Shown here: positions 26,744 to 43,531 of the stretch, in pieces
Numbering within the stretch: the stretch's first letter is position 1
How the letters are laid out: each line of letters starts with the position of its first letter
Origin: Sphingopyxis sp. H050
Lineage (GTDB): Bacteria; Pseudomonadota; Alphaproteobacteria; Sphingomonadales; Sphingomonadaceae
NCBI RefSeq assembly: GCF_001468265.1
Contig: NZ_LNRZ01000001.1
Coordinates: forward strand, 248,001 to 312,000
Direction of reading: 5' to 3'
Length of the DNA: 64,000 bases
Notes under the pieces: generated by a model
Seen by the model: the letters and a program-made list of their open reading frames with translations, nothing else
Told to the model about the DNA's origin: nothing
The model's database searches: none
Translations under genes and position numbers: made by a program

Positions 26744-27490
26744 CTAGAAACTGCCGGGATAGAGGCCACCGTCCATCAGGATATTCTGCCCGGTCAGATA
26801 GCCGGCATGGCGACTGCAGAGGAAGGCGCACATCGCGCCCATTTCGTCGGGATCGCCCACGCGGCCCGCGACGGCGTTGCCGGTCAAATGCTTCGTGATG
26901 TCCTTCGAATTGCGCAACCGCCCGGTGTCGAACGGACCGGGGAGCAGATTGTTGATCGTCACCCCCTTGCCCGAATATTGCGGCACCAGCCCGAAGACGA
27001 AATTGGTGAGCGCCGCGCGCGTCGCGTTCGACAGGCCGATCACCGGGATCGGGACGCGGACCGCCGACGAGGTGATGTTGACGATCCGGCCAAAGCCGCG
27101 CGCCGCCATATCGTCGGCGGTCAGCTTGATCAGTTCGACCGCCGCGAGAAGATTCTGGTCGATCGCCGCGATCCAGACGTCGCGGTCCCAGTCGCGATAG
27201 TCGCCCGGCGGCGGTCCGCCGGCGTTGTTGACGAGGATATCGACCTCGCGCGCCGCCCGGACCAGCTTCTCACGCACGTCGGGCTCGGTCACGCTGCCGA
27301 CGACGGTGGTGACCGTCACATCGGGTGCATGCGCGCGAATTTCGGCCGCCGCCTCTTCGAGCGTTTCGGCCGTGCGCGCGTTGATCACGACATCAACGCC
27401 TTCGCCCGCCAGCGCCTTGGCGCAGGCGCGGCCGAGGCCGCTGCTCGCCGCACACACGATCGCGGTGCGCCCCTTGATACCCAGATCCAC
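26744..27490 (-). CDS. SDR-family oxidoreductase with altered active site
   Basis: A 248-residue short-chain dehydrogenase-like protein. The cofactor loop reads VCAASSGLGRACAKAL instead of TGxxxGIG, NNAGG is near residue 90, and the catalytic Ser is in NITSSA. The usual Tyr-x3-Lys is replaced by LSNATR (Leu and Arg), which fits the atypical BKR-like SDR subgroup rather than a standard dehydrogenase. GTG 27490 has a GGGGAGAGG site upstream. It is the last gene of the hydratase-dehydrogenase-aldolase operon, 17 bases after the aldolase. The reaction is unknown. Confidence 0.82.
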   Translation of the reverse strand: MDLGIKGRTAIVCAASSGLGRACAKALAGEGVDVVINARTAETLEEAAAEIRAHAPDVTVTTVVGSVTEPDVREKLVRAAREVDILVNNAGGPPPGDYRDWDRDVWIAAIDQNLLAAVELIKLTADDMAARGFGRIVNITSSAVRVPIPVIGLSNATRAALTNFVFGLVPQYSGKGVTINNLLPGPFDTGRLRNSKDITKHLTGNAVAGRVGDPDEMGAMCAFLCSRHAGYLTGQNILMDGGLYPGSF

Positions 27491-27507
27491 TCGTGCCTCT
27501 CCCCGGC

Positions 27508-28530
27508 TTATTGTTTCAGCATGTCGAGCGCGACGTCGACGATCATGTCTTCCTGCCCGCCGACCATCTTGCGCCGCCCAAGTTCGACGAGGATCGCGCG
27601 CGTGTCGAGTCCGTGGTCGGCGGCGGCTTTCTCCGCATGGCGAAGGAAGCTGGAGTAGACCCCGGCATAGCCGAGCGTCAGCGTCTCGCGGTCGACACGC
27701 ACCGGGCGATCCTGCAGCGGACGGACGAGGTCTTCGGCGGCGTCCATCAGCGCATAGAGATCGCAGCCGTGGTTCCAGCCCGCGACGTCGGCCGCGGCGA
27801 TGAAGACTTCGAGCGGCGCATTGCCCGCCCCCGCGCCCATGCCGGCGAGGCTCGCATCGACGCGCACCGCGCCGTTCTGCACCGCGACGATGCTGTTCGC
27901 GACGCCGAGGCTGAGATTGTGGTGCGCGTGGACGCCGCGCTGCGTCTCGGGCTTGAGCACCCGGTCATAGGCCTGCAGCCGCGCCGCATATTGATCCATC
28001 GTCATCGCGCCGCCGCTGTCGGTGACATAGACGCAGTGCGCGCCATAGCTTTCCATCAGCTTGGCCTGCTGCGCGAGCGGTTCGGGCTCCGACATATGGC
28101 TCATCATCAGGAAGCCCGAAACGTCCATGCCGATGCCGCGCGCAAACTCGATATGTTGCTTCGCGACATCGGCCTCGGTGCAGTGGGTCGCGATCCGCAC
28201 CGAGCGCACGCCCATCTCATACGCGTGCTTCAGGTCGTGGATGGTGCCGATGCCCGGCAGCAGCAGCGTGGTCAGCACGCTATGCTCGAGCACCTCGGCG
28301 ACCGCGCCGATCCAGTCCCAGTCGGTGTGGGCGCCGAAGCCGTAGTTGAAGCTCGACCCTTGGAGGCCGTCGCCGTGCGCGACCTCGATCGCATCGACCT
28401 TCGCCGCATCGAGTGCCTTGGCGATCGCCTTCACATGGTCGAGGCCGTACTGGTGCCGGATCGCGTGCATGCCGTCGCGGAGCGTGACGTCCTGGATGTA
28501 GAGCTTCTCGCTCGTCGGATCGAAGCTCAT
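27508..28530 (-). CDS. 4-hydroxy-2-oxovalerate aldolase
   Basis: Class II DmpG/MhpE/BphI-type aldolase that splits 4-hydroxy-2-oxovalerate into pyruvate and acetaldehyde. The 340 residues show the N-terminal [10 protein letters not shown] (catalytic Arg-Asp) at about 14-23, EVAHGDGL, and the metal site [10 protein letters not shown] (His-x-His) near residue 200, with [16 protein letters not shown] after it. The start overlaps the stop of the acetaldehyde dehydrogenase gene (ATGA), in line with the known channelling complex between the two proteins. It is part of the lower meta-cleavage pathway. Confidence 0.95.
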
Positions 28531-29483
28531 GCCGCCATCTCCTGCTTCATGCGGAGCGCGATCTTCTCGGCGGTCTTCAGCGCCGCCGAGGTCATGATGT
28601 CGAGGTTGCCGGCATAGGCCGGCAGGTAATGCGCGGCGCCTTCGACCTCGAGGAAGACGCTGACCTTCAAGCCTGTGAAGCTGCCGCCCATCTCCGGTAT
28701 GCGCAGCGGCGCGTTGCCGCCGATGCTTTCGAACTGCACCGCCTGTTTCAGGCGATAGCCCGGCACATAGGTCTGCACCTCGGCGACCATCTCGTCGACG
28801 CTCCTTGCGATCGCTGCTCGGTCGGCGTCGTCGCACAGGCAATAGACGGTGTCGCGCATGATCAGCGGCGGTTCGGCGGGATTGAGGATGATGATCGCCT
28901 TGCCGCGCGTCGCCCCGCCGACCTCGACGATCGCCTGGCTTGTCGTCTCGGTGAATTCGTCGATGTTGGCGCGCGTGCCGGGGCCGGCGCTCTTCGAGGC
29001 GATCGAAGCGACGATTTCGCCATAGTGGACCTTGGCGACGCGGTTCACCGCCGCGACGATCGGGATCGTCGCTTGCCCGCCGCAGGTCACCATGTTGACG
29101 TTGGCGGCATCGAGGTGCGCATCGCCATTGACCGGTGGGATCGTGTAGGGACCGATCGCCGCGGGGGTCAGATCGACGACGCGCTTGCCGTGCGCTATCA
29201 GCACTTCGCTGTGCCGCCGGTGCGCGCCCGCCGACGTCGCGTCGAACACGATGCCGATATCGGCAAAGCCGGGCATCGCGACGAGCCCGTCGAGCCCGTC
29301 CGCGGTGGTCGGCACGCCAAGCCGCTCGGCGCGCTTCAGCCCGTCGCTGCCGGGATCGATCCCGACGAAGGCGCCCATCTCGAGCACGTCGGACAGGCGC
29401 ATGATCTTGATCATCAGGTCGGTGCCGATGTTGCCCGATCCGATGATCGCGACTCTGGTCTTACCATCAGGCATGTTCGTCAT
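28527..29483 (-). CDS. Acetaldehyde dehydrogenase (acetylating)
   Basis: Converts the acetaldehyde from the aldolase to acetyl-CoA with NAD and CoA (DmpF/MhpF/BphJ family). It has 318 residues; [14 protein letters not shown] at about 11-24 is the NAD site and the catalytic cysteine lies in [15 protein letters not shown] 29483 is used, four bases after the hydratase stop; ATG 29474 is also possible. It overlaps the aldolase gene, its physical partner. Confidence 0.95.
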
Positions 29484-29487
29484 CGTC

Positions 29488-30267
29488 TCAGCCCTCATAG
29501 GTGAAGCTGCACGCGCCGATCCCGGCGACCTCTGCACGGACATGATCGCCGGGGGTCAGCGCGACCATCGGCCCCAGCGCGCCCGCCAGCAGGATGTCAC
29601 CAGCCTTCAATGGCTCGCCGCGCGCCGCTAGCGTCTGCGCAAGCCAGGCCGCGGCGTTGAGCGGATTGCCGAGCGCGGCGGCACCGATACCCGTCGAAGC
29701 GACCGCGCCGTTGATTTCCATCGCCATCGCCGCGCCTTCAAGGTCGAGCCCGTGCAGCGGCAGGCCTTCGTCGGCCAGCACGAAGAAGGCGGACGAGCCG
29801 TTGTCCGCGACGGTGTCGGCGAAGGTGATTTTCCAGTCCGCAATGCGGCTGTCGACGATCTCGATCGCGGCATGAACGGTCGCCACCGCCGCCGCGACCT
29901 GCTCGACATTCGTGTCGGCGTCGGGCAAGTCGGCTCCCAGCACGAAGGCGATTTCGGCCTCGGCCTTCGGCTGCAAGGTCTTTGCGGGGTCGAGCGTGCC
30001 GCCATCGGCAACGCGCATATCGTCGAACAAGACGCCGAAATCGGGCTGATCAACCCCGAGCTGTATCTGCACCGCCTTCGCGGTCAGGCCCGCCTTGCGA
30101 CCCACGATCCGGCGCCCGGCGGCTTCCCAGAAACGCGTGTTGATGGTCTGCACGGCATAGGCGCCCTCGACATCGGTCGGCTCCAGACCGTCGCGCAGCG
30201 GGGGCACGGCCCCGGCATTATAGGCAGTGCGCAAGCGGAGCGCGAGATCGTCATGGCTGACCGTCAT
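29488..30267 (-). CDS. 2-oxopent-4-enoate hydratase (2-hydroxypenta-2,4-dienoate hydratase)
   Basis: Adds water to 2-hydroxypenta-2,4-dienoate to give 4-hydroxy-2-oxovalerate (MhpD/XylJ/BphH family). The 259 residues include an [12 protein letters not shown] segment, [15 protein letters not shown] near residue 52, [10 protein letters not shown] holding acidic metal ligands, IEIVDSRI, and [19 protein letters not shown] at the end. It heads the leftward operon hydratase-dehydrogenase-aldolase-SDR and has a GGGAGGAT ribosome-binding site. The IclR gene is divergent to it, and a candidate GntR operator lies about 90 bases upstream. Confidence 0.93.
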
Positions 30268-30347: not shown

Positions 30348-31097
30348 ATGAGTAATTCTAACATGCAAGGTTCGCAGTCGGCCGCTCGGACGCTGGCGCT
30401 TCTCGAAGCCGTCACGCTGGACGGCGGGCGCACGCCGGCCACCGAACTCATCGCCCGCGCGGGACTCGCCCCGGCGACCGGCCGGCGGCTGCTGGCGCTC
30501 TTGGTCGAACGGGAATTGCTGATGCGAATTGCGCGCGGCCGATATGCCGGCGGGGAAAGACTGCGCCAGCTCGCCGCGCGGGTGAGCCCGCATGCGCGCT
30601 TGATTGAGATCGCACGACCAATGCTCCGACGCCTCGCCCAAGCCGAGCGGGCGACCGCCTACCTCGGCGTTTTCGAAGGCGAAATGGTCACATATCTCGT
30701 CAAGGAAGGCGCGCAGACCGGATTCACGCGCGAGCGAATGCAGCTCGAAGCCTATTGCACGGCTATCGGCAAGGTGTTGCTCGCGCAGCTCGTGGAGAGC
30801 CGGCTCGATACCTATCTCGCCGCGCCCTTGGTGCCGCTGACGGCGCATACGATCACCGATCCCGCCCGGCTGCGTAACGAACTCGCGGCGACGCGCGTGC
30901 GCGGCTACGCGATCGACGATCGCGAAATGGCCGACGATCTCGGCTGCGTCGCGGTGCCGCTCCATCGATTGCGGGGTAGCGATTATGCGATTTCGCTGTC
31001 GGGATCGCCGCTGCGCTTCAACCCGGACCATGCGATGGATATCGCGGCCCGGCTCCAGAACACGGCGCGGCAGATCAGCGAGCAGTTGCGCCACTGA
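30348..31097 (+). CDS. IclR-family transcriptional regulator
   Basis: About 249 residues. A winged helix-turn-helix fills residues 6-75 (QSAARTLALLEAV ... RLLALLVERELLMRIARGRY), followed by an IclR effector domain with YLVKEGAQTGFT, YCTAIGKVLLAQL and CVAVPLHRL. It probably controls the divergent hydratase-aldolase operon in response to a pathway metabolite. The start is uncertain (TTG 30321, ATG 30348, ATG 30363); none has a good SD site. Its 3' end overlaps the convergent DUF5519 gene by 23 bases. Confidence 0.85.
   Translation: MSNSNMQGSQSAARTLALLEAVTLDGGRTPATELIARAGLAPATGRRLLALLVERELLMRIARGRYAGGERLRQLAARVSPHARLIEIARPMLRRLAQAERATAYLGVFEGEMVTYLVKEGAQTGFTRERMQLEAYCTAIGKVLLAQLVESRLDTYLAAPLVPLTAHTITDPARLRNELAATRVRGYAIDDREMADDLGCVAVPLHRLRGSDYAISLSGSPLRFNPDHAMDIAARLQNTARQISEQLRH
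30358..30369. promoter_or_regulatory. Candidate GntR-type operator A
   Basis: CTAACATGCAAG, one of five related 12-bp sites (consensus about CTWGCATGCWAG) in this island. It lies between the divergent hydratase operon and the IclR gene, and overlaps the first IclR codons if the 30348 start is right. A second weaker palindrome (TGCTCA-N5-TGAGTA, about 30338-30354) sits beside it. Binding is inferred from recurrence only. Confidence 0.5.
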
Positions 31098-31563
31098 GCC
31101 CGCGCGCATTCGCCCAGCTTGCCCGCACCAGCGCTGCGAGCACCCCGACCTCCTCCGCATCGCGCGGCGCATACAGCATCACCGTGTCGGGCGACACGCT
31201 AGGCTGTCCGGCGAGCGGGTGCGGTTCGGCCCAGCCGGCAGCGATGGCGGCGCTGCGCAGCGGCTCGGGCAGGATGACGTGCAGACTGCAATCATCCTCC
31301 AGATGGACATGCGCAAACTCGTCGCCCAGCAGGAAGGCATTGCCATTGTCGCAGCAGGCCGCGGCGTCGAGATAAAAGCCTACCGAACCTGGCGGGGCGC
31401 GCAGACTGTGCCCCAGCTTCACATGCGCTAGCCCAGCAAGCTGCTCGATCAGTTCTGCCGCCAGACGACGCGCTTCGAGGACGATCTGGTCGACTTGGCT
31501 GTGCGGGGCGCAGGGGATGGTGCGCGGGCGCGGTCCCCGGCGCAGCGGCAAATCTGGGTCCAC
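31075..31563 (-). CDS. DUF5519 (luciferase-domain) family protein
   Basis: A 162-residue soluble protein. The run GDEFAHVHLEDDCSLHVILP, then AAGWAEPHPLAG and DTVMLYAPRDAEEV, resembles the small 'luciferase domain' DUF5519 family, usually of unknown function. GTG 31563 has a GGGGAGACC site and lies 10 bases after the TonB receptor stop, so it should be co-transcribed with that receptor. The assignment is by remembered family pattern and could be wrong. Confidence 0.5.
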   Translation of the reverse strand: MDPDLPLRRGPRPRTIPCAPHSQVDQIVLEARRLAAELIEQLAGLAHVKLGHSLRAPPGSVGFYLDAAACCDNGNAFLLGDEFAHVHLEDDCSLHVILPEPLRSAAIAAGWAEPHPLAGQPSVSPDTVMLYAPRDAEEVGVLAALVRASWANARGLSGATAR

Positions 31564-31573
31564 AAGGTCTCCC

Positions 31574-33795
31574 CTAGAAGGAATAGTCGATCCGCACGCC
31601 GATGGTGCGCGGCTTGGTATAGGCGGTCGTCGGGCTGACCCCGATGAAGCCCGGCGTCAGATATATGTTGTTGCGTTCGACGTTGTTTTCGATGTTCGTC
31701 ACATAGCCGGTGACCCTGAGGCCCGGATCGCTGAGGCGATAGGTGACGGTCAGGTCGGTCTTGGTGTTCGACGGCACGCGGTCGATCGCATAATTGTTGA
31801 ATTCGCGCAGATAGAAGGCGCTGTGGAAATTGCTGTTGGCCGCAAAGGTCAGCGTGCCCGACCCCAGTTCGACCTCGTAATTGATGCCGAGGTTGACCGT
31901 GTGGCGCGAGACGAAAGGCAGGCGGTTCCCCGAATAGTCGAGCAGCGGCCCCGGGCCCGCCAGCGGGTCGCGGTTGCGATATTCGTCGACCTCGGCATCG
32001 ATATAGGAATAGCCCGCGGTAAAGGTGAAGCGATCGGACAGGCGCCAGCGCGTATCGAGTTCGATACCCCAGATCGTGCTGGCCGCGGCATTGGTCGTGA
32101 ACTGCCCTGGCGTCACCCCGTCGGCGGCAACGCCGAGCGTGGTGAGCTGCAGATTGGTATAGTCGTAGTAGAAGGCGTCGAGATTGATCCGCGCGACGCG
32201 GTCGAACAGGTCCGACTTGATGCCGAATTCATAGGCGGTGATCGTTTCGGGGTCATAGGGCCGGCCGTCCGACGACAGGTTGAAGCCGCCCGCCTTGTAA
32301 CCGTTCGACACGCTCGCATAGGCCAGCACGTCGGGCGCGACGTCATATTCGACTCCGGCCTTCCACGTGACCTTGTCGAACTTTACGTCCGCCGGGAACA
32401 TCGCGTTGGGCAGGTCAGGCGGAAAGGGCTGGCCGAAATTGCCCCGCGTGATCTTGCGGCCGTCCTTCTTGTCCTCGGTATAACGGACGCCGCCGCTGAC
32501 GCGGAAGGCATCGCTCAGCGCATAGGTGATCGACGCGAAGCCCGCGATCGTCTTGCTGTTCCCATATTCGTCGAGGATGAAATCGGGCAGGCTGATGACG
32601 CCGCCCGGCGTCAGGCCTTTCAGGCGGACGCGGCGAAGGTGTACGTGCTCTCGTCGAAATAATAGCCGCCGAGGATCCAGCTGAACGGGCCGTCGCGGGT
32701 CGACGCCAGCCGCGCTTCGACGCTGGTCGACTTATTGTCCTGATCCTTGTTGAAGATCGAGACGTCGACCGGCGATCCGTCGAAATCCTGTTGGTTATAA
32801 CTGTCCTGCCACATGCGGCCGACCTGCAGATACGCCTCTACCCCGCCAAAATCCTTGCGCAGCCGCGCGAAGGCGAGCTTGGTTTCGACGGTCAGATAGG
32901 CCGGCGCGTCGATGTCGGTGACGCGCGGGTTCAGATTGAGGGGGGGCAGGGTGCGGAGCAGCGCCTGCACCGGCGGCGGCCCGCCGATATTGCGCTGCAG
33001 GAACTGGTTCGCGCTGCCCGTGCCCTTCAGCTTCGAATAGAGGCCATAGAGCAGCAGTTCGACGCTATCGACGTCGCCGACCTTGACCTGCCCGCGCACG
33101 GTGAGATCGCCGTTGGTGCCGTAAAGGTCGGGGCCGCGAAGATTCTTCAGATAGCCGTCTTCCTCGGTATAGACGGCGGAGATGCGCACCGCCGCAACGT
33201 CGCCGAGCGGGGCGTTCAACCAGCCGCGCACTTCCCACAGGTTGCGCGAGCCATAGCTCGCTCCGACCTCGCCCGCGAAATTGCCTTTCGACGGCTCGTT
33301 CGAAATCACGTTGATCACGCCGCCGGTCGCGTTGCGGCCATAGAGCGTGCCTTGCGGTCCCCGCAGCACTTCGACGCGGTTGACGTCATAGAAGACCGCG
33401 CTGCCGCCCGCCGGGCGCGAGACATAGAAATTGTCCTGATAGAAGGCGACGCCATTGTCGGTGATCGAACTCGTCCCCTGGATGCCGATCCCGCGCAGCG
33501 TGATCTTCACGCCGTCCTGCTCCTGTCCCACGCGAAGATTGGGGACATAGCTCTGCAGATTGTTGACGTCGTCGATCCCGCGTTCTTCCATCGCAGTGCC
33601 GCCGATCGCGGAGATGGCAAGCGGCGTGTCCTGCAGATTGGTCTCGCGCTTCTGGGCGGTGACGATGATCTCGTCATCGCCATAGCTGGCGGTATCCCCG
33701 GCGGGGGGCACGTCCTGCGCCTGCGCAGCTTGCGCGGCGGCGAGTGCGCCGATCGTGGCGCTGGCGGCAAGCAGCCTGCTGACCATCTTGTTCAT
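31574..33795 (-). pseudogene. TonB-dependent receptor, frameshifted
   Basis: Outer-membrane receptor reading as two frames. The first part (33795 to the TGA at 32620) has a signal peptide ending AQAQ near residue 27, a TonB box (DEIIVTAQKRE), a complete plug with RGPQGTLYGRNATGG, and early barrel strands up to GGYYFDESTYTF. The barrel then continues without gap in a second frame (GLTPGGVISLPDF onward, through SGGVRYTEDKKDG) to a canonical C-terminal Phe at 31574. A one-base change between about 32615 and 32645 restores a roughly 740-residue receptor. It could be real decay or a sequencing error. The family suits uptake of a hydrophobic or aromatic compound by the nearby pathway. Confidence 0.85.
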
Positions 33796-33817
33796 TCGAC
33801 CTCTCCCTCATAACATT

Positions 33818-33829
33818 CTAGCATGTAAG
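33818..33829. promoter_or_regulatory. Candidate GntR-type operator B
   Basis: CTAGCATGTAAG, 23 bases upstream of the TonB receptor start codon and next to its GGGAGAGG ribosome-binding site. It differs from the consensus palindrome at one position per arm at most. Its place near the expected transcription start suggests repression of the receptor-DUF5519 unit. Confidence 0.55.
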
Positions 33830-33876
33830 ATTGGAGCAGGGAAAGCCCGAAAGCCGGCCCCGCTCCGTCCCCCTGA

Positions 33877-35715
33877 TTATCCGGTTGCGCGGTAACGCTC
33901 GGCCGCGGCGGGCGGCGCCACGAGGTCGCTTGCCATGTCTTTCGATCGCCAGCGTGCGAGCAATTCCTCATATTCCAGCGGGCCGCCGCCATAGGTGCCG
34001 CCGACGAAGGTCGGCTTGTCGCGGAACTGTCCCTCGTTGTTCAGGAAGCCCGGCGTGCACTCTTCATAGAAATGTTCGTGATCGACATGCTTGGCCTCGA
34101 GCAACGCGTGCCAGCGCTCTTCGGCGTCGGTACTGGGTTCCAGCGCGGCAATGCCCCGGCTCCGGCAATGGGCGATGATCTCCGCCGCATGTTCGGCCTG
34201 CATGCGCAGCGTATGCGTGAAATTGAATGCAGTCGTCCCCTGCGCGGTGCCGCCGACGATATGGAAATTGGGAAAGCCGCTGAGCTGCGTGCCGTGGAGG
34301 GTGCGCAGGTCGCCTTCCCAGCGTTCGGCAAGCGTCACGCCGTCGCGGCCCGTCACCTTATAGCCGCCGACCTTGTGCGGGGGCGCGCCGACGTCGAAAC
34401 CCGTCGCAAGGATGATCAGGTCCAGCGGATACTCCCGACCATTGGCGATGATCCCGGTTTCGGTGATCCGCTCGATGCCGCGCCCGTCCGTGTCGACCAG
34501 CGTGACGTTAGGACGGTTGAAGGTGGGCAGATACTCGTCGCTGAACAGCGGTCGCTTGCACAGGAAATTATACCAGGGCTTCAGTTTTGCGGCCAGATCG
34601 GGATCGGTGATCTCGGCGGTGACGCGGGCGCGGATGGCCTCCATCTTTTCGAAATCCGACTGCTGCATCTTTTCGTGGGGGTCCGGCGTCTCGCCGGCGG
34701 CACGCGCTTCGCGCATCAACTCGCCCATGCGCAGAAACAGGTCGCCCCAATGGTCGTCGACCAGCACCTCGGGAACCGGCTTGCCGGAGACGATGCCCAG
34801 GAAATTGTCCATGCGCCGACGCTGCCATCCCGGTTCCTGGCTCAGGAGCCAGTCGGCATCGGTTGGACGATTGGAGCGGATGTCGATCGCCGACGGGGTG
34901 CGCTGGAAGACATAGAGCTCCTTGGCATGCTCGGCGACGCGCGGGACGATCTGCACTGCGGTCGCACCCGTGCCGATCACCCCGACGCGCTTGTCGGCAA
35001 GCCCGGTCAGTCCGCCGTTCTGATCGCCGCCGGTATAGCCATAGTCCCAGCGCGCCGAGTGAAACATGCGGCCCGTGAAGTCGCGGATCCCGGGAATGCC
35101 GGGCAGCTTCACCTTGGCGAGGGGTCCCTGGCTGACGGTCACGAACCGCGCGGCGATGCGGTCGCCGCGGTCGGTCAGCGCGATCCAGCGTTCGGCACCT
35201 GCATCCCAATCCATCCGCTCGATCCGCGTCTGGAACAGCGTCCGCTCGTAAAGGCCGAAATGACGGCCGATCGCCTGGCAATGCGCGAAGATCTCGGCGC
35301 CGGTCGAATAGCGTTCCGCCGGGACGGTCCCGACCTCCTCGAGCAGCGGCATATAGATATAGGATTCGATGTCGCAGCGGACGCCGGGATAGCGGTTCCA
35401 GTACCAGGTGCCGCCGAAGTCGCCCGCTTGTTCGACGATGCGGAAATCGGCGATACCGCGGCGGACGAACTCGGCGGCGGTCTGAAGTCCGCCGATTCCG
35501 CCGCCGACGATAAGAACCTCGACGTCCTCGGCCACGGCGCTGCGGGCAAAGCCGGGTTCGACATAAGGGTCGGCCACGAAATCGGCGAAGTCGCCGCTCG
35601 CCTCGATATATTGTGTTTCGCCGTCACGGCGCAGGCGTTTGTCGCGCTCGGCCAGGTAGCGGGCGCGCAGCGCCTCGCCATCAAAGATCGGGCCGGTCGT
35701 CGGGCCTGAGGCCAT
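33877..35715 (-). CDS. Baeyer-Villiger flavin monooxygenase
   Basis: Class B flavoprotein monooxygenase of 612 residues that inserts oxygen next to a ketone to give an ester or lactone, using FAD and NADPH. The FAD motif GGGIGG is at 71-76, the Baeyer-Villiger fingerprint FTGRMFHSARWD (FxGxxxHxxxW-P/D) at 213-224, and the NADPH motif GTGATA at 248-253. The N-terminal extension before the FAD domain, about 65 residues, resembles the 4-hydroxyacetophenone or cyclododecanone monooxygenase types. GGGAG precedes ATG 35715. It lies between the receptor and the GntR gene and could supply an oxidised intermediate to the ring-cleavage steps; the substrate is unknown. Confidence 0.9.
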   Translation of the reverse strand: MASGPTTGPIFDGEALRARYLAERDKRLRRDGETQYIEASGDFADFVADPYVEPGFARSAVAEDVEVLIVGGGIGGLQTAAEFVRRGIADFRIVEQAGDFGGTWYWNRYPGVRCDIESYIYMPLLEEVGTVPAERYSTGAEIFAHCQAIGRHFGLYERTLFQTRIERMDWDAGAERWIALTDRGDRIAARFVTVSQGPLAKVKLPGIPGIRDFTGRMFHSARWDYGYTGGDQNGGLTGLADKRVGVIGTGATAVQIVPRVAEHAKELYVFQRTPSAIDIRSNRPTDADWLLSQEPGWQRRRMDNFLGIVSGKPVPEVLVDDHWGDLFLRMGELMREARAAGETPDPHEKMQQSDFEKMEAIRARVTAEITDPDLAAKLKPWYNFLCKRPLFSDEYLPTFNRPNVTLVDTDGRGIERITETGIIANGREYPLDLIILATGFDVGAPPHKVGGYKVTGRDGVTLAERWEGDLRTLHGTQLSGFPNFHIVGGTAQGTTAFNFTHTLRMQAEHAAEIIAHCRSRGIAALEPSTDAEERWHALLEAKHVDHEHFYEECTPGFLNNEGQFRDKPTFVGGTYGGGPLEYEELLARWRSKDMASDLVAPPAAAERYRATG

Positions 35716-35841
35716 CGTTTCTCACTCCCTTGCGGCGCCTCTGTGGGTGCTCGGCGGTGGAGGGGGCCGGCTTTCGCGCTTCCGATTGAACGAGTCGCGC
35801 GGGCCGGCCGCCCTATGCTATGCGCTTTAGCGCAACTGCGA

Positions 35842-35853
35842 CTTGCATGCAAG
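35842..35853. promoter_or_regulatory. Candidate GntR-type operator C
   Basis: CTTGCATGCAAG is a perfect palindrome, extended to 14 bp by flanking A and T. It is in the 146-base gap between the GntR stop and the Baeyer-Villiger monooxygenase start, about 127 bases before that start. It is the most symmetric member of the five-site set. Confidence 0.6.
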
Positions 35854-35861
35854 TATGTTAG

Positions 35862-36515
35862 TTACGCGGCGGCGCGATGTTTGCGCATGCCGGCGAGGAC
35901 CGACGAGGCGACCGCGCCGATATGGGTCTCGGCGAGCGTCCGGGCGCGAGCGGGGGATTTGGAGGCGATCGCCTCGATGATCTCGTCATGCTCGCGCGCG
36001 GCGTCGGCCATGAACGGATCGAAGCCGCCGGCCTGGTTGATGAAGAAATCGGACATGTTGAAATTGCTGTTCTGCCGTTCATCGACGAAGGGCGATTGCG
36101 CCATGTCGTGGATCAGCTGGTGGAAGGCGCGATTGAGCTGGCCATATTCTGCGGCGCTGTGCGGATCGCCGAAGTCGATCGCCAAAATGCGGCCCTGAAG
36201 TGCCCGCAAATCCCGCATTTGCGCGTCGGTGCGCCGCGCCGCCGCCAGTTCCGCGAGCAATCCTTCGAGCCGTTCGAACATCAGGTAGAAGTCGGCGATC
36301 TCGTCATGACCGGGGTTCACCACTTCGCAGCCGACCTGCGGGATGATGCGGACAAAGCCCTCCGAGCTCAGCCGGTTGAGCGCTGCCATAATCGGCTGGC
36401 GGCTCGCGCCCGTATCGGCGGCAAGCTCCTTCACCGACAGGCGCTGGCCGAAGCTGTAGCGCGCTTCGACGAGCCGGCTGACCAGCAGGTCGTAGATTTC
36501 ATCCTTCTTGTTCAC
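35862..36515 (-). CDS. GntR-family (FCD domain) transcriptional regulator
   Basis: A 217-residue regulator from GTG 36515, which has a CGGAGG site eight bases upstream; a longer start at 36632 would add about 39 unconserved residues. The N-terminal winged helix is clear (KKDEIYDLLVSRLVE, GQRLSVKELAADTGASRQPIMAALNRLSSEGFV), and the C-terminal helical FCD ligand domain has LNRAFHQLIHDMA and AREHDEIIEAI. It likely represses its own gene and the flanking units through the CTWGCATGCWAG sites; the ligand is unknown. Confidence 0.9.
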   Translation of the reverse strand: MNKKDEIYDLLVSRLVEARYSFGQRLSVKELAADTGASRQPIMAALNRLSSEGFVRIIPQVGCEVVNPGHDEIADFYLMFERLEGLLAELAAARRTDAQMRDLRALQGRILAIDFGDPHSAAEYGQLNRAFHQLIHDMAQSPFVDERQNSNFNMSDFFINQAGGFDPFMADAAREHDEIIEAIASKSPARARTLAETHIGAVASSVLAGMRKHRAAA

Positions 36516-36570
36516 GCCGTCAGCCTCCGACCTCGCGCGCCGAGGTCTGCCGATTATCTCTCTCGACGAA

Positions 36571-36582
36571 CTAGAATGCAAG
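36571..36582. promoter_or_regulatory. Candidate GntR-type operator D
   Basis: CTAGAATGCAAG, 55 bases upstream of the GntR start codon, in the divergent gap with the hydrolase gene. It is the least perfect copy (A for C at the core), as would suit weak autoregulation. Confidence 0.45.
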
Positions 36583-36716
36583 AGTCGATCGTCAAGCGAC
36601 TCCTGTGCCCCGATCCTAACAAAAATCCCCAAATGTCATGGGATTTTGAGGATGGGGCCAGACTCGCGGTGCGGTGATTTGAACCCGCTTCAGCCGACCT
36701 GGCTTTACTTTGCCTT

Positions 36717-36728
36717 CTAGCATGCTAG
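36717..36728. promoter_or_regulatory. Candidate GntR-type operator E
   Basis: CTAGCATGCTAG is a perfect 12-bp palindrome 31 bases upstream of the hydrolase start codon. Together with site D it brackets the GntR-hydrolase divergent region (36516-36759). The rest of this region shows no gene. Confidence 0.6.
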
Positions 36729-36759
36729 GATGTATATCGAATCAGACGGGAGAGATCGC

Positions 36760-37632
36760 ATGTTTTTGTGGCCCGAAATCGCGGCGGGGACGATCCGTCT
36801 GGGATATGTGCAGGCGGGACCCGTGCGGACGCGCTATGTCGAGGCGGGTGACCCGCACGCACGCGAGGCGGTGGTTTTCATCCCCGGCACCGGTGGACAT
36901 CTGGAGGCCTTCACCCGCAACCTGCTGCCGCATGCTGAACATTGGCGGACGATCGCGCTCGACATGGTCGGCCACGGCTACAGCAGCAAGCCCGACCATG
37001 ATTACGAGATCCGGCATTATGTGCAGCATCTGCTCGACTTCGCCGACGCGCTGGGTCTCGACCGGCTCCACGTTCATGGCGAGTCGCTCGGCGGCTGGAT
37101 CGCGGCGCAGTTCGCGATCGACCATCCGGGGCGTGTTGCGTCACTGACGCTGAATACCGCGGGCGGGCTGAACACCGACCCGAAGGTCATGGAGCGCGTC
37201 TATAATGTCACGATGAAGGCGGTGGCGGAGGCCAGTCCGGAAACGGTGCGCGCGCGGCTCGAATGGCTGATGAACGATCCCGCCCGCGTGACCGACGATC
37301 TCGTCGAACTGCGTCTCGCCATCTACACTCAGCCCGGATTTTTGCAGGCGATGGAGCATATCCTGTGCCTGCAGAATATGGATATCCGCATGCGCAACGT
37401 CCTGACCGACGAAAGCCTGTCGAGGATCAGCGCCCCGACGCTCGTCATCTGGACCGATCACGACCCCACTGCGCCGGTCGCGACGGGCGAGCGTTTCGTC
37501 GCGGCGATCCCGAACGCCCGGCCGCTGGTCGTGATGGACGACTGCGCGCACTGGCCGCAGTGGGAAAAGGCTGACGAATTCAATGCGCTTCACATCGAGT
37601 TTCTGCGCGCCCACGCGCTGACGCCCGCGTGA
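36760..37632 (+). CDS. Alpha/beta hydrolase, meta-cleavage product hydrolase type
   Basis: A 290-residue alpha/beta-hydrolase. The oxyanion region is FIPGTGGH near residue 40; the nucleophile S109 is in HGESLGG; Asp 235 (TDHDPTAP) and H264 (DDCAHWPQW) complete the triad. The CAHWPQWE end resembles MhpC/BphD C-C hydrolases, and a dioxygenase gene follows 13 bases later, so hydrolysis of a ring-fission product is likely. ATG 36760 has a GGGAGAG site; ATG 36730 is possible but lacks one. Confidence 0.82.
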   Translation: MFLWPEIAAGTIRLGYVQAGPVRTRYVEAGDPHAREAVVFIPGTGGHLEAFTRNLLPHAEHWRTIALDMVGHGYSSKPDHDYEIRHYVQHLLDFADALGLDRLHVHGESLGGWIAAQFAIDHPGRVASLTLNTAGGLNTDPKVMERVYNVTMKAVAEASPETVRARLEWLMNDPARVTDDLVELRLAIYTQPGFLQAMEHILCLQNMDIRMRNVLTDESLSRISAPTLVIWTDHDPTAPVATGERFVAAIPNARPLVVMDDCAHWPQWEKADEFNALHIEFLRAHALTPA

Positions 37633-37645
37633 CGGAGCGGTTCGC

Positions 37646-38104
37646 ATGACCGTGCGCCTGATCTGCGCATCGCACACCCCGCTGATGGACCATGTCGATG
37701 CCGACCCGGCGATCGACGCCGAGGTGCGGGCGGCGTTCCGCGCGCTGGGCGAAGAGGTTCGGGCCTTTGATCCCGAGCTGGTGATCCAGTTCGCGCCCGA
37801 TCATTTCAAGGGCTTCTTCTACGACATGCTGCCGCCCTTCACGGTCGGCATCCGCGCCGAGGCGATTGGTGATTATGACATCGGCAGCGGCGCGTTCGAC
37901 GTGCCAGAGGATATGGCGCTCGACTGCATCCGCGCCTTGCATGCCGACGATGTCGACGTCGCCATGTCATACCGGATGCAGGCCGATCATGGCTTCGCGC
38001 AGTTGCTCGTGCTGCTCGGCAGACGAAACTGGCGCGGCTGTCCGTGCGCTGGAGTGAAAGCGCGTAAATTGCCTGCTCGAGATGCGACCTTTTATCGGCC
38101 ATAG
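37646..38104 (+). pseudogene. Extradiol dioxygenase (MhpB/LigB type), truncated
   Basis: The first 125 residues match 2,3-dihydroxyphenylpropionate-type class III extradiol dioxygenases: LICASHTPLMDHVD with H10, LVIQFAPDHFKGFFYDMLPPF with H53, MQADHGFAQLLVLLG with H115. Homology stops near base 38020, and 27 unrelated residues lead to TAG at 38102-38104. Family members are about 310 residues, so more than half, including the second catalytic histidine region (His179 in MhpB numbering), is missing. It should be inactive. The break marks one end of the aromatic island. Confidence 0.82.
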
Positions 38105-38809: not shown

Positions 38810-38847
38810 TTGACAAAGAGAACGTTATCATTTAGGTGAACGTTCAC
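38810..38847 (+). promoter_or_regulatory. Receptor promoter region with two LacI-type operators
   Basis: A TTGACA -35-like box (38810-38815) is followed by two palindromic sites: GAGAACGTTATC (38818-38829) and the perfect GTGAACGTTCAC (38836-38847), with centres 18 bases apart. Both have the central CG of LacI-family operators. The -10 box is not clear. The sites would cover RNA polymerase, so a LacI regulator (gene at 46881) probably represses the receptor here. Confidence 0.6.
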
Positions 38848-38892
38848 ATTCAAATGCCATCAACAGAATGGCGATATTGGGAGGGTTACGGG

Positions 38893-41800
38893 ATGCAGGC
38901 TTCGCACAAGCATTGGCTCGCCAAATTCATGGTCGGTACGTCGGCGCTGGCGCTGATCGGCACGGCCCAGGCGGCCATGGCACAGGAAGCACCGGCTGAC
39001 GTCAGCGAAGGCGATGAAATCGTCGTTACCGGCATCCGCGCCAGCCTTTCCGCGGCGGCGGATATCAAGCGCGACGCGCAAGGCGTCGTCGATGCCATCT
39101 CGTCCGAAGATATCGGCAAATTCCCCGACACCAACCTCGCCGAATCGCTCCAGCGTATCACCGGCGTTTCAATCGACCGCTCGAATGGGGAGGGCTCGAC
39201 CGTCACGGTCCGCGGCTTCGGTCCCGATTTCAACCTCGTCACGCTCAATGGCCGGCAAATGCCGACGGCGCTCATCGGCGACGGCGGCAGCGCCCCTTCG
39301 TCGCGTTCGTTCGACTTCGCCAATCTCGCTTCCGAAGGCGTGTCGGCGGTCGAAGTCTACAAAAGCGGCCGGGCGACGATCGAATCGGGCGGCATCGGCT
39401 CGACGATCAACATCCGTACCCCCCGCCCGCTCGACAAGCCGGGCCTGTACGGCAGCCTGTCGGCGAAGGCCGTCTATGACTCGTCGCGCAACGACGGCAA
39501 TCCGATTACGCCTGAAATTTCGGGCATCTTCAGCACGACGCTCGGCGACGACACGATCGGCATCCTGATCACGGGGTCGTATCAGAAGCGCAAGGCGAGC
39601 GAGAACAAGGCGAATGTGGGCTGGCGCGACGGCTATTTAGGCAGCGAGAACAATTGGGGCTCGCTGGCGCAGCCGGGCGATCCGCGCTTTGCGAACATCA
39701 CCAACCGCCCCGATGCGACCGACGTCTATCAGGTGCCGCAAAACGCGTCCTATGACCTCAACGACATCGACCGCGAGCGCATCAACGGTCAGGCAGTGCT
39801 GCAATTCCGCCCGAGCGACGCGCTGACCGCAACGCTCGACTATACCTATTCCCGCAACACGGTGACGACGCGCAACAGCAACGTCGGCATCTGGTTCAAC
39901 CATGAAGATACGTCGAGCGCGTGGACCGACGGTCCGGTCGCCGGCCCGATCTTCTATACCGAACGCTTCGCCGCCCCGCCGGCCCCGCCCAGCACGACCG
40001 CGCTCAATGGGGGCAAGGATCTGTCGTACAGCGGCGCGCTGACCGATAACCGGGCCGAAAACCGCTCGGTCGGATTCAATCTGCAGTGGGACGGGCCGGA
40101 GGGTGTCTTCGTCGAACTCGATGCGCATCATTCGACCGCGACGGTCAAGCCGGTCAACCGCTTCGGGTCGAGCATGTCGGTCGGCAACGCGATCTTCGGC
40201 GTGCGAACCCAGACGATCAATTTCGAGAACGACCTGCCGATCATTTCCTATGCGATGCACCCGGGAATCGATCCGCTTAACGCCGCATTGATCCAGCCCA
40301 CGGGCAATGCCTTCCGCGCCGCCTATTTCCGCGACGAGATCAATCAGGTCCAGCTGCGCGGCCGCTATGATCATGAAGGCGGCTTCCTCGACAGCATCGA
40401 TTTCGGCGTGTCCTATGTCGAAAATAATGTCCGTTCGGCCTTTGGCACGATCCAGAACGATACCTGGGGTGGCGCTGGTCCGGCGTCGGACATTCCCGAC
40501 GACATCTTCACGCTCGAGACGCTGCCCGACAAATTCCCCGGTCTGGCGCAGCCGGGAATGATCCAGAGCTTCTATACCTTCGATTTCGAACGGATGGTCG
40601 ACCTGATCGAGTCCAAGTACGGCACGTGCAGCCGGCCGCAGACGGGTTCGCAGGCGATCCCCGGCACCTGTATCGCCACCTACAACACCGACCGGCGGAT
40701 TACCGAAAAGACGCTGGCGCCCTATCTGCAGGTTGCGAGCAAGTTCGACTTGTTCGACAATCCCGCGCATTTCGTCGCGGGCGTCCGCTACGAGACAACC
40801 GATATTTCCTCGGCGGCGCTGGTTCCCGTCCCGACGGGCACGCGCTGGGTCGGCGATAACGAGTTCAACATCATCTTCTCCGGCCAGAGCGATTTTACCC
40901 GTTTCAAGGGGTCGTATGAGAATTGGCTGCCCGCGTTCGACTTCGACGTCTCGCCGATCGAGAACGTAAAGCTGCGCGCGTCGTACAGCCACACGATCAC
41001 GCGGCCCGACTATGCCAATATGCAGGGGGGGCGCACGCTCGACACGTTGTTCCGCGTCGGCGGGGGCACGGGAGCGCAAGGCAATCCGGGCCTGATCCCC
41101 TACAAATCGAAGAATATCGATCTGTCGGCCGAATGGTACTACATGCCCGGCAGCTATCTGTCGGTCGGCTATTTCCACAAGGATGTCAGCAACTTCATCT
41201 CGACCACCCGCGTCGATACCGAGGCATTCGGGCTGCGGACGCCCGTGGGCGGTCCGCGCTGGAATGCCGCGCTCGCAGCGCGGGGGCAGAATGCGACGGT
41301 TTCGCAGATCCGCCAATATATCTTCGCCAACTATCCGGGATCGGTGACGATCACCGGTGGCACGCAAGAGGGCAATTTTGTCGGGACGATCAACACGCTG
41401 CCCGAGGATCCGGCGCTCAACTTCCAGATCACACAGCCGATCAACAGCGATCAGACGGCGTCGCTTAACGGCTTCGAATTTGCGCTCCAGCACAGCTTCT
41501 GGGACACCGGCTTCGGCGTCATCCTGAACTATACAATCGTCAACGGCGACGCGACCTACGACAATACGCAGCCGTCGTCGGTGCCGCAGTTCGCGCTCAC
41601 CGGCCTCAGCGACAGCGCCAACGCGGTCGCCTATTACGACAAGAACGGGTTGCAGGCGCGCGTTGCTTGGAACTGGCGCGACGAATTCCTCCAGAGCAGC
41701 GGGCCGAACCCGACCTATATCGAGGAATATTGGCAGATCGACGCCAGCGCGAGCTATGAGTTCATTCCGGGCTTCACAGTCTTTGCCGAGGCGATCAACC

Positions 41801-41904
41801 TGACCGGCGAAGGGCGCCGCGGGCACCTGCGGAGCAAGAACAACGTCACCTTCGCGTCGCCGGGCTATGCCCGCTACGCGGCCGGCGTCCGGTTCAACTT
41901 CTAG
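38893..41904 (+). CDS. TonB-dependent receptor, TonB-Xanth-Caul family
   Basis: Outer-membrane receptor of 1003 residues. The signal peptide ends at about residue 30 (AMAQ), the TonB box is DEIVVTGIRAS, and the plug has the DIGKFPDTNLAESLQRITGV stretch that marks the Caulobacter/Xanthomonas receptors for plant glycans. The 22-strand barrel ends in YARYAAGVRFNF with terminal Phe. ATG 38893 with GGGAGGGTTACGGG upstream is used rather than the longer frame start at 38836, which lies in the operator. It heads the SapC/halogenase locus and likely imports an oligosaccharide, possibly a beta-glucan given the GH3 gene. Confidence 0.92.
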   Translation: MQASHKHWLAKFMVGTSALALIGTAQAAMAQEAPADVSEGDEIVVTGIRASLSAAADIKRDAQGVVDAISSEDIGKFPDTNLAESLQRITGVSIDRSNGEGSTVTVRGFGPDFNLVTLNGRQMPTALIGDGGSAPSSRSFDFANLASEGVSAVEVYKSGRATIESGGIGSTINIRTPRPLDKPGLYGSLSAKAVYDSSRNDGNPITPEISGIFSTTLGDDTIGILITGSYQKRKASENKANVGWRDGYLGSENNWGSLAQPGDPRFANITNRPDATDVYQVPQNASYDLNDIDRERINGQAVLQFRPSDALTATLDYTYSRNTVTTRNSNVGIWFNHEDTSSAWTDGPVAGPIFYTERFAAPPAPPSTTALNGGKDLSYSGALTDNRAENRSVGFNLQWDGPEGVFVELDAHHSTATVKPVNRFGSSMSVGNAIFGVRTQTINFENDLPIISYAMHPGIDPLNAALIQPTGNAFRAAYFRDEINQVQLRGRYDHEGGFLDSIDFGVSYVENNVRSAFGTIQNDTWGGAGPASDIPDDIFTLETLPDKFPGLAQPGMIQSFYTFDFERMVDLIESKYGTCSRPQTGSQAIPGTCIATYNTDRRITEKTLAPYLQVASKFDLFDNPAHFVAGVRYETTDISSAALVPVPTGTRWVGDNEFNIIFSGQSDFTRFKGSYENWLPAFDFDVSPIENVKLRASYSHTITRPDYANMQGGRTLDTLFRVGGGTGAQGNPGLIPYKSKNIDLSAEWYYMPGSYLSVGYFHKDVSNFISTTRVDTEAFGLRTPVGGPRWNAALAARGQNATVSQIRQYIFANYPGSVTITGGTQEGNFVGTINTLPEDPALNFQITQPINSDQTASLNGFEFALQHSFWDTGFGVILNYTIVNGDATYDNTQPSSVPQFALTGLSDSANAVAYYDKNGLQARVAWNWRDEFLQSSGPNPTYIEEYWQIDASASYEFIPGFTVFAEAINLTGEGRRGHLRSKNNVTFASPGYARYAAGVRFNF

Positions 41905-41927
41905 GCCTGGCCACACCTTCCGTGGCA

Positions 41928-41963
41928 AGAGAGCCGTGCCTTCCCCGGGGTGCGGCTCTTTTG
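41928..41963 (+). terminator. Probable Rho-independent terminator after the receptor
   Basis: AGAGCCG (41930-41936) pairs with CGGCTCT (41953-41959) around a C/G-rich loop, followed by TTTT. It sits 24 bases after the receptor stop. It would reduce, not necessarily abolish, read-through into the halogenase operon. Confidence 0.6.
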
Positions 41964-41989
41964 CGTGACGGACGGCGACGAGTGGCTTA

Positions 41990-41999
41990 GGAACGTTCC
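41990..41999. promoter_or_regulatory. AACGTT palindrome before the first halogenase gene
   Basis: GGAACGTTCC is a perfect 10-bp palindrome ending two bases before ATG 42002. It shares the AACGTT core with the sites at 38818, 38836 and 49160, but the outer bases differ, so it may be chance or a weak operator. Confidence 0.3.
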
Positions 42000-42001
42000 C
42001 A

Positions 42002-43531
42002 ATGGCGCAAAAAGTGGAGAGGGTGGTCATTGTTGGCGGCGGCACGGCCGGCTGGCTAGCCGCGTCGCTGCTCGCCGTATCACGCCGTGCAAAAGCCGCG
42101 CCGCTGTCGGTGACGCTGGTCGAGGCGCCCGATGTGCCGATCGTCGGCGTGGGCGAGGGCACTTGGCCGACGATGCGCGCGACGCTGGCTGCCATAGGTC
42201 TCGATGAGGGCGATTTTCTGTCGGCGTGCGACGGCGCGTTCAAGCAGGCGTCGCGCTTCGATGGCTGGGTCGATGGCTCCGCGGATGACAGCTATCTCCA
42301 CCCCTTCACGACACCGCCGGCGGTGCCGACGGGCGAGTTGCTTGCGGCGTGGCAGGTGGCGGCGCCCGACCAGCCCTATGCAACAGCGATGAGCGCGCAG
42401 GCGGCGGTTTGCAGCGAGCATCTGGCCCCGCGGCAGCGGGCGATGCCGGGCTATCAGGGCGCCGCCAACTATGCCTATCATTTCGACGCCGGGAAATTCG
42501 CGGCGCTGCTGGCAACACACGCGACGCGCGAACTGGGCGTCACGCATGCCCTTGCGCATGTCACCGGCGTCGAGCGAGCCGCGAATGGCGACATCTCCGC
42601 GCTGACCGTGCGTGACGGCGCTGCGATTACGGGCGACCTGTTCATCGATTGCACCGGCTTTGCCGGGCTGCTGATCGGTCGCGCGCTAGACATCGAGTGG
42701 ATCGACCGCGGTGGCCAGCTGTTCAACGACCGCGCGATCGCATCGCAGGTGCCTGTCCCGCCGGGCAGCCCCATTGCATCGCAGACGATCGCGACCGCGC
42801 ACGAAGCGGGGTGGATCTGGGACATCGGCCTGCCATCGCGGCGAGGGATCGGCTGTGTCTATTCCAGCCGCTTTATGGAGCCCGATGCCGCAGAGGCCGT
42901 GCTGCGCGCCCATATCGCCCGCGAACTGCCCGACGCGCCTGAGGTGCCCTTCCGGCATATCGACTTTCGCACCGGCCACCGCGCCCGTTTCTGGGAGAAG
43001 AATTGTATTGCGGTGGGGCTGTCGGCGGGCTTCATCGAGCCGCTCGAGGCCTCGGCGATCGTGCTGATCGAACTGTCGCTGCGCGCGCTCACCGACAATT
43101 TTCCTGCCGATCGGACGGCGATGGATATTCACGCCGCGCGCTTCAACACGCTCTTCCGCTATCGCTGGGACCGCATCGTCGAGTTTCTGAAGCTCCATTA
43201 TGTGCTCAGCCGCCGCGACGAGCCCTATTGGCGCGCGCACCGCGAGCCAAGTCATATCCCGCCGCACCTTGCCGAGATGCTGGAGCTGTGGCGCAGCCAG
43301 CCGCCGTCGACGTGGGACTTTCCCTACGTCGACGAGATTTTCTCGGCCGAGAGCCACCAATATATCCTCTACGGCATGGGCTTCCCTGCTCCCGCCGGCT
43401 GGTCCACGAGCGACCGCGCGATGACGGCGCTGGCCGAGATACGGCAGCGCGCGCGGATGCTCACCGCGGGATTGCCGACGAACCGTAGCTACCTCGACGC
43501 GCTCGCTGCCGAACGCATCGCCGCCGAATAA
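42002..43531 (+). CDS. Tryptophan halogenase-like flavoprotein 1
   Basis: A 509-residue flavin-dependent halogenase-like protein. The FAD motif GGGTAGW is at 12-18, the lysine that forms the halogenating chloramine in true halogenases is K81 ([11 protein letters not shown]), and a variant WIWDIGLP replaces the WxWxIP motif. IEPLEAS near residue 347 is also conserved. Members next to SapC and TonB receptors are common in Caulobacter, Xanthomonas and sphingomonads and are thought not to halogenate tryptophan; their role is unknown. A halide oxidation of a carbohydrate-linked or aromatic ligand is one guess. Confidence 0.85.

Follow-up and report, generated by a model that had tools for sequence, protein, structure and literature searches.

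Five short palindromes, all within a 6.4-kb stretch of the genome of Sphingopyxis sp. H050, are very probably the operators of one regulator that is encoded among them, a GntR protein with an FCD domain and of the VanR group, which is predicted to repress the promoters at which these palindromes are found. The DNA in question, here ‘the window’, is 64,000 nucleotides long (positions 248,001 to 312,000 of contig NZ_LNRZ01000001.1, assembly GCF_001468265.1), and coordinates are counted from its first letter. The regulator, of 217 residues, is encoded on the minus strand (35862..36515), and its assignment to the VanR group is by structure model. The sites, their specificity, their conservation, their overlap with a promoter, and the family of the protein were all computed here. 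An original prediction, made from the letters of the window, had suggested a single local regulon under an FCD-type GntR protein, and that suggestion appears to hold, as the sites stay with the GntR gene and the genes beside it in different genera and despite rearrangements.

The sites read TWGC-AT-GCWA, and as candidate operators no strand is assigned to them. They are CTAACATGCAAG (30358..30369), 91 bp upstream of the start of a hydratase open reading frame (ORF); CTAGCATGTAAG (33818..33829), 23 bp upstream of a TonB receptor ORF; CTTGCATGCAAG (35842..35853), 127 bp upstream of the ORF of a Baeyer-Villiger monooxygenase (BVMO); CTAGAATGCAAG (36571..36582), 56 bp upstream of the start of the GntR gene; and CTAGCATGCTAG (36717..36728), at the promoter of a hydrolase gene. 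All five are indeed present where they had been reported. They had also been placed in five gaps between genes, which does not apply to the 30358 site, i.e., as this site is found inside the first codons of a divergent gene for an IclR-family regulator.

These five sites are the only places in the window with zero or one mismatch to CTWGCATGCWAG. Within the organism's own genome, scanned as 4.36 Mb in 23 contigs, the same pattern is found at up to one mismatch in 10 places, with five of them inside the 6.4-kb stretch. A refined 12-mer, CTWRCATGYWAG, which has R and Y at inner positions, matches exactly at four places, 4/4 in the locus, and at 15 places given up to one mismatch. The genome scan that had been proposed along with the original prediction, as run here with a consensus pattern, confines exact CTWRCATGYWAG to this locus; many equally good scattered matches are not what was found, there being zero exact ones off-locus. 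Reversed control patterns outnumber the real ones (24 places versus 10 for CTWGCATGCWAG, and 51 versus 15 for CTWRCATGYWAG), and the motif is thus rare in this genome outside of the locus, with no genome-wide excess. A genome-wide regulon was considered and rejected, as only 10 other places are one mismatch from CTWRCATGYWAG, eight of them under ORFs of at least 100 residues and two not.

The same association is seen in other genomes. Within a family sample of 298 genomes, with GntR relatives accepted at an E value of 1e-30 or better, four genomes carry such a relative, and in those four the exact 12-mer is found in 4, 2, 2, and 2 places, 10/10 no more than 5.5 kb from the GntR gene. The other 294 genomes hold 57 scattered exact matches, distributed over 49 genomes and with a maximum of three per genome. 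With these 294 regulator-free genomes as background (57 matches by hand count, and a mean genome size assumed to be 3.2 Mb), the chance expectation for exact matches in the 6.4-kb stretch is 0.0004, and the probability of at least four is 9e-16. A class-level sample of 385 genomes adds one relative (genome G419), whose GntR gene has two exact sites next to it. As a separate observation, genome G119, which is without a relative of this GntR protein, has two exact CTAACATGTTAG sites that are 6.6 kb apart (C3:157890 and 164518), perhaps belonging to another regulator.

By contig scan, GntR relatives are found in 21 loci at 49–91% identity, mostly in sphingomonads but with a few labelled Marinicaulis, Rhodospirillales, and Rhizobiaceae. 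A set of 17 loci with pathway genes was assembled from 12 of those 21, four further loci, and 22 kb of the window, i.e., 266 kb, with flanks limited to 10 kb and several contigs short. Allowing one mismatch, 57 sites are found in this set; 36 are exact matches, and 48 precede a pathway gene. As a control for those 57, first-order Markov sequences yielded 5, 0, and 1, and for 120 permuted palindromes the exact matches averaged 0.16 and reached at most 9, versus the 36 real ones. Sites were then tallied by gene, counting those up to 350 bp upstream and setting aside genes at locus ends. A site precedes the GntR gene in 16/16 testable loci, the BVMO gene in 12/12, and the hydrolase gene in 14/17. 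In several loci the BVMO gene has the opposite orientation yet retains its own site.

The protein itself has an N-terminal GntR winged helix-turn-helix (PF00392; 56.2 bits, cut-off 27) and a C-terminal FCD domain (PF07729; 63.9 bits, cut-off 24.3). An AlphaFold2 model from a 16-sequence alignment (mean pLDDT, i.e., predicted local distance difference test score, of 90.6) shows, from residue 70 onward, six helices in the FCD domain. Six rather than seven FCD helices is a mark of the VanR group (PMC7797058), and on the basis of the model the regulator is a VanR-group FCD GntR protein. Fold matches of the model include a Brucella melitensis GntR protein, PmiR, Atu1419 with DNA, and AlkR. No NCBIfam equivalog cut-off was reached, with phnR_burk the best at 56.4 bits versus 271.5.

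Among 16 aligned relatives, a set without L027, L056, or any solo locus other than L012, residue R39 is invariant and aligns with Arg45 of Atu1419, which contacts an operator G (PMC7797058). The likewise invariant Q40 and M43 replace Thr46 and Arg49 of Atu1419, and we infer that these replacements may be connected with the operator having GC instead of GT. H132, H176, and H198 are invariant as well and, by alignment with Atu1419 only, are candidate metal ligands of the FCD pocket. The organism also has a GntR paralogue of 37% identity (L036; C1:522826-523452) that contains one internal TGA and is found beside a TonB-receptor-like gene, with no such operator nearby at up to one mismatch.

How the regulator might act is suggested particularly by the hydrolase promoter. 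Here 15 site-bearing promoters were aligned on the site: 13 ahead of hydrolase orthologues, that of a Rieske-headed operon in L026, and that of L030, with the site-free hydrolase genes of L031 and L053 excluded. A -35-like hexamer is found in one common slot, TTTACA in 9/15 promoters and TTTACT in the window (36704..36709, plus strand), with a mean match in this slot of 5.07 of 6 versus 1.69 (standard deviation 0.41) in other slots. After 16 bp there follows TAGNAT in 15/15, which in the window is a -10-like TAGGAT (36726..36731, plus strand). As the TAG is part of the operator, only the NAT counts as independent evidence of a -10. The operator thus fills the spacer between these two elements and overlaps the -10, an overlap missed by the original prediction, and with an operator so placed repression is the likely mode. 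Palindromes at such promoter positions are those of the repressors Atu1419 (PMC7797058) and AlkR (PMC12042122).

It is nevertheless conceivable, if improbable, that the same GntR protein at these same sites is an activator, or instead a repressor at some promoters and an activator at others. Ms0535, whose operator is the most similar among published proteins, activates its own operon (PMC4609117), which weighs against repression. The BVMO and hydratase sites, furthermore, are far enough upstream (127 and 91 bp) for activation to be possible there. Speaking against activation are the position of the hydrolase operator, in the spacer and over the -10, and the fact that palindromes of known VanR-group regulators in comparable positions mediate repression (PMC7797058, PMC12042122).

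The mechanism of repression that we infer would involve binding of a GntR dimer to each 12-bp core, with the conserved arginine of each recognition helix reading the G of CTWG, and with a weaker second dyad, its centre 8 bp away, adding to binding at most promoters. Bound protein, positioned over the -35/-10 spacer and the -10, would keep polymerase off of the hydrolase promoter and, by analogy, also off of the receptor, BVMO, and hydratase promoters as well as that of the GntR gene itself. A metabolite of an aromatic pathway would then release the GntR protein.

A number of additional observations weigh against repression by this GntR protein at all of these genes. Upstream sites are found for the TonB receptor in only 5/10 loci, for the SDR gene in 5/10, for the hydratase gene in 4/8, and for the FAD (flavin adenine dinucleotide) hydroxylase in 1/3, and the hydrolase genes of L031 and L053 are without an upstream site at up to one mismatch. 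Remaining tallies are 0/12 for a VOC dioxygenase, 0/5 for the aldolase, 0/3 for a metallo-hydrolase, and 1/17 for the dioxygenase. Most of the low counts fit genes placed inside of operons, while those for the receptor and SDR genes imply that the regulon varies between loci. Nine loci without the pathway (L012-L017 and L020-L022; GntR 84-85% identical) have no site at up to one mismatch, even though their recognition-helix and helix-turn-helix sequence is the same as that of the window's GntR protein. In six printed upstream regions of these loci, CTTGCGTTCTTG is found at the position of the window's GntR operator. Given an unchanged helix-turn-helix region, the operator consensus has drifted in these loci that lack the cluster. 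One such locus (L012:8497-16572) has its 84-85% identical GntR gene, with a degenerate operator, near what by eye are integrase-like, CoA-transferase-like (coenzyme A), and FAD-linked oxidase-like genes.

Since loci were picked by their GntR gene, the loci by themselves also leave room for some other regulator. The candidate at hand is the neighbouring IclR-family regulator, which might own the palindromes instead of the GntR protein: the start of its gene bears a site, as noted, and 4/6 of the loci that carry the gene have a site upstream of it. Such ownership is nonetheless highly unlikely, and was rejected for IclR as main owner, as the GntR gene has its upstream site in 16/16 loci, whereas an IclR orthologue is seen in only 6/17, given 10-kb flanks and some short contigs. 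That the five matches are a product of chance or base composition, as the mild enrichment within the window at up to two mismatches might suggest (9 matches versus 4.48 expected, with 9 reached in 2/100 shuffles), has next to no probability and is rejected by exclusivity within the own genome, the family-genome scan with conservation ahead of orthologous genes, and the permuted palindromes.

At most sites the 12-mer is accompanied by another, weaker dyad at a distance of exactly 8 bp, likewise missed by the original prediction. Flanks of the sites hold a second match to the 12-mer, its centre 8 bp from that of the first, with a z of 9.8 over 40 sites (of the 41 with no more than one mismatch, L030:17 was dropped because of a contig end). 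The z is 11.1 over 37 sites, with the close relatives L011, L018, and L019 left out, and 32/37 score 8/12 or better. Four bases are shared by construction in this offset-8 test and were retained in the shuffles. Weaker signals at offsets of 4 and 12 (z of 5.5 and 3.5) indicate that part of the offset-8 signal is due to the palindromic tetramers themselves. Within the window the second dyad scores 9/12 at the 33818 site (33810-33821) and 9/12 at the 35842 site (35850-35861); at the 36717 site both flanks resemble a dyad (9/12 and 8/12), the dyad is weak at the 30358 site (6/12), and at the 36571 site a second dyad 8 bp off is absent (5/12). One of the 10 off-locus one-mismatch places, L006, also has a second dyad of 9/12. 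For GntR-family palindromes, weaker boxes at 7-12 nt from the centre have been described (PMC4494728), so the second dyad here is a pronounced instance of something already known.

Two further sites may be noted here. A nearly perfect palindrome of about 30 bp surrounds a composite operator ahead of the hydratase operon of L031 (10660-10695), and an extra site with a strong second dyad (L019:11914) is found between an FAD hydroxylase and a luciferase-domain gene, in a stretch without counterpart in the window.

What the second dyad represents can be viewed in two ways. Tentatively, and at somewhat less than even likelihood, the true operator could consist of dyads that overlap in steps of 8 bp, a lattice of the form (CATGCWWG)n, to which two dimers or one tetramer would bind cooperatively, with dyad number grading promoters and with a 20-bp composite becoming the main palindrome in distant relatives (GTAACATGCTTGCATGTTAC, L031). 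Were this so, then receptor, BVMO, hydrolase, and regulator would be switched on in an ordered manner. From a different perspective, and this we consider rather doubtful, the second dyad might be merely the -10 element plus the transcript start and not a binding site, as in hydrolase promoters its NATG coincides with the -10-like TAGNAT. Against that are the BVMO promoters, where the second dyad is on the opposite side, i.e., CTAACATA ahead of CTTGCATGCAAG; both dyads being strong in the distant relatives L029 (CTTACATGCAAGCATGCTAA) and L031; and the strength of the offset-8 signal over 37 sites.

Among known systems, the operator of Ms0535 from Mycobacterium smegmatis, a VanR-like FCD GntR protein with a 26-bp operator (PMC4609117), is the closest published one found, with the likeness being one of operator and family. 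Its DNase I footprint, the protected sequence being CCTTGCATGCATTCTTGCATGCAAGG, includes the exact 12-mer CTTGCATGCAAG, such that the 35842 site equals its right-hand element; the original prediction had taken the operator to be that of no named regulator, which this footprint contradicts. Each of its two operator elements is bound when the other is mutated. Unlike here, those elements are more than 8 bp apart, and the protein has a single target site and activates an operon that is its own and includes a permease (PMC4609117).

Atu1419 of Agrobacterium fabrum is similarly a VanR-group FCD protein, one that adjoins a region for aromatic-acid degradation and represses from a short palindrome over the -10 or between -10 and -35 (PMC7797058). 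Its palindrome differs, however (ATGTATACAT), it forms a tetramer, which may loop out the DNA between sites far apart (PMC7797058), and its identity with the GntR protein here is at most 23% in fold alignments. AlkR shares the VanR-group fold (TM-score 0.85 by query length) and represses over the -10 of a monooxygenase gene, but its operator is ATTGTCAGACAAT, its pathway is that of alkanes, and its effectors are acyl-CoAs (PMC12042122). The FadR-subfamily consensus, TKGT-N2/3-ACMA (PMC4494728), does not describe the present sites, which have the same 2-nt spacing but with GC replacing GT and AC. The extra half-sites of that subfamily are TKGT/ACMA boxes (PMC4494728) rather than, as here, TWGC/GCWA at 8 nt, and in some relatives of the present locus the second element is instead an almost complete dyad that has 4 bp in common with the first. 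Serving as context only, sphingomonad BVMO pathways for anthraquinone (PMC9836352) and bisphenol F (PMC12724174) are described in papers without any mention of GntR in their main text. No paper on this regulon was found among the matches listed in the open-access literature, a scope outside of which most subscription papers fall.

The genes around these sites, a small cluster for the breakdown of aromatic compounds, are, on the plus strand, those for the IclR-family regulator (30348..31097), divergent from the hydratase operon; an MhpC-like alpha/beta hydrolase (36760..37632), its ORF opening at 36730 and the start at 36760 chosen from a purine-rich stretch preceding that codon; and an MhpB-like, LigB-type dioxygenase that is truncated (37646..38104). 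On the minus strand are hydratase, acetaldehyde dehydrogenase, 4-hydroxy-2-oxovalerate aldolase, and SDR genes (26744..30267), the TonB-dependent receptor (31574..33795), and the type I BVMO (33877..35715). Relatives variously carry genes for the hydrolase, a full-length dioxygenase, a WrbA-like flavoprotein, a VOC-type dioxygenase, the BVMO, the receptor, an FAD hydroxylase, a metallo-hydrolase, an SDR protein, and the hydratase-dehydrogenase-aldolase series. The truncated dioxygenase is followed, at 38836-43531, by a large TonB-receptor-like ORF and by one that by eye resembles a tryptophan-halogenase-type flavoprotein, both without this type of site.

That the five units form one pathway, as the original prediction had it, is not how they appear in this strain, where no intact pathway is seen. 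Of the dioxygenase only the N-terminal part is present, about 127 of 313 residues, and a second copy was not found in the own genome. The receptor changes frame between its halves (31574-32401 and 32620-33795), whereas its L011 counterpart is one ORF of 744 residues; a sequencing error is possible. The search of the own genome for partners covered the relatives' FAD hydroxylase and VOC-type dioxygenase. The former has one match elsewhere, 33% identical, and the latter no match, an empty search alone being weak evidence. With dioxygenase truncated, receptor frame changed, and partners not found, the wiring is real, but it is doubtful that the pathway functions in this strain, and the cluster seems to be decaying in this genome. 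The substrate, as a guess based on the BVMO, would be an aryl or cyclic ketone.

This, then, is very probably a specific, conserved, local regulon of a VanR-group FCD regulator, which is most likely a repressor; as a gene switch it is of a familiar type, and a sound case that lends itself to testing. An uncharacterised regulator is given a very specific operator, and a regulon that is coherent in sphingomonads and a few other Alphaproteobacteria. It should serve as a ready reporter for seeking the substrate of the BVMO and meta-cleavage cluster. The cluster, furthermore, shows a regulator and its operators persisting while enzyme genes are lost.

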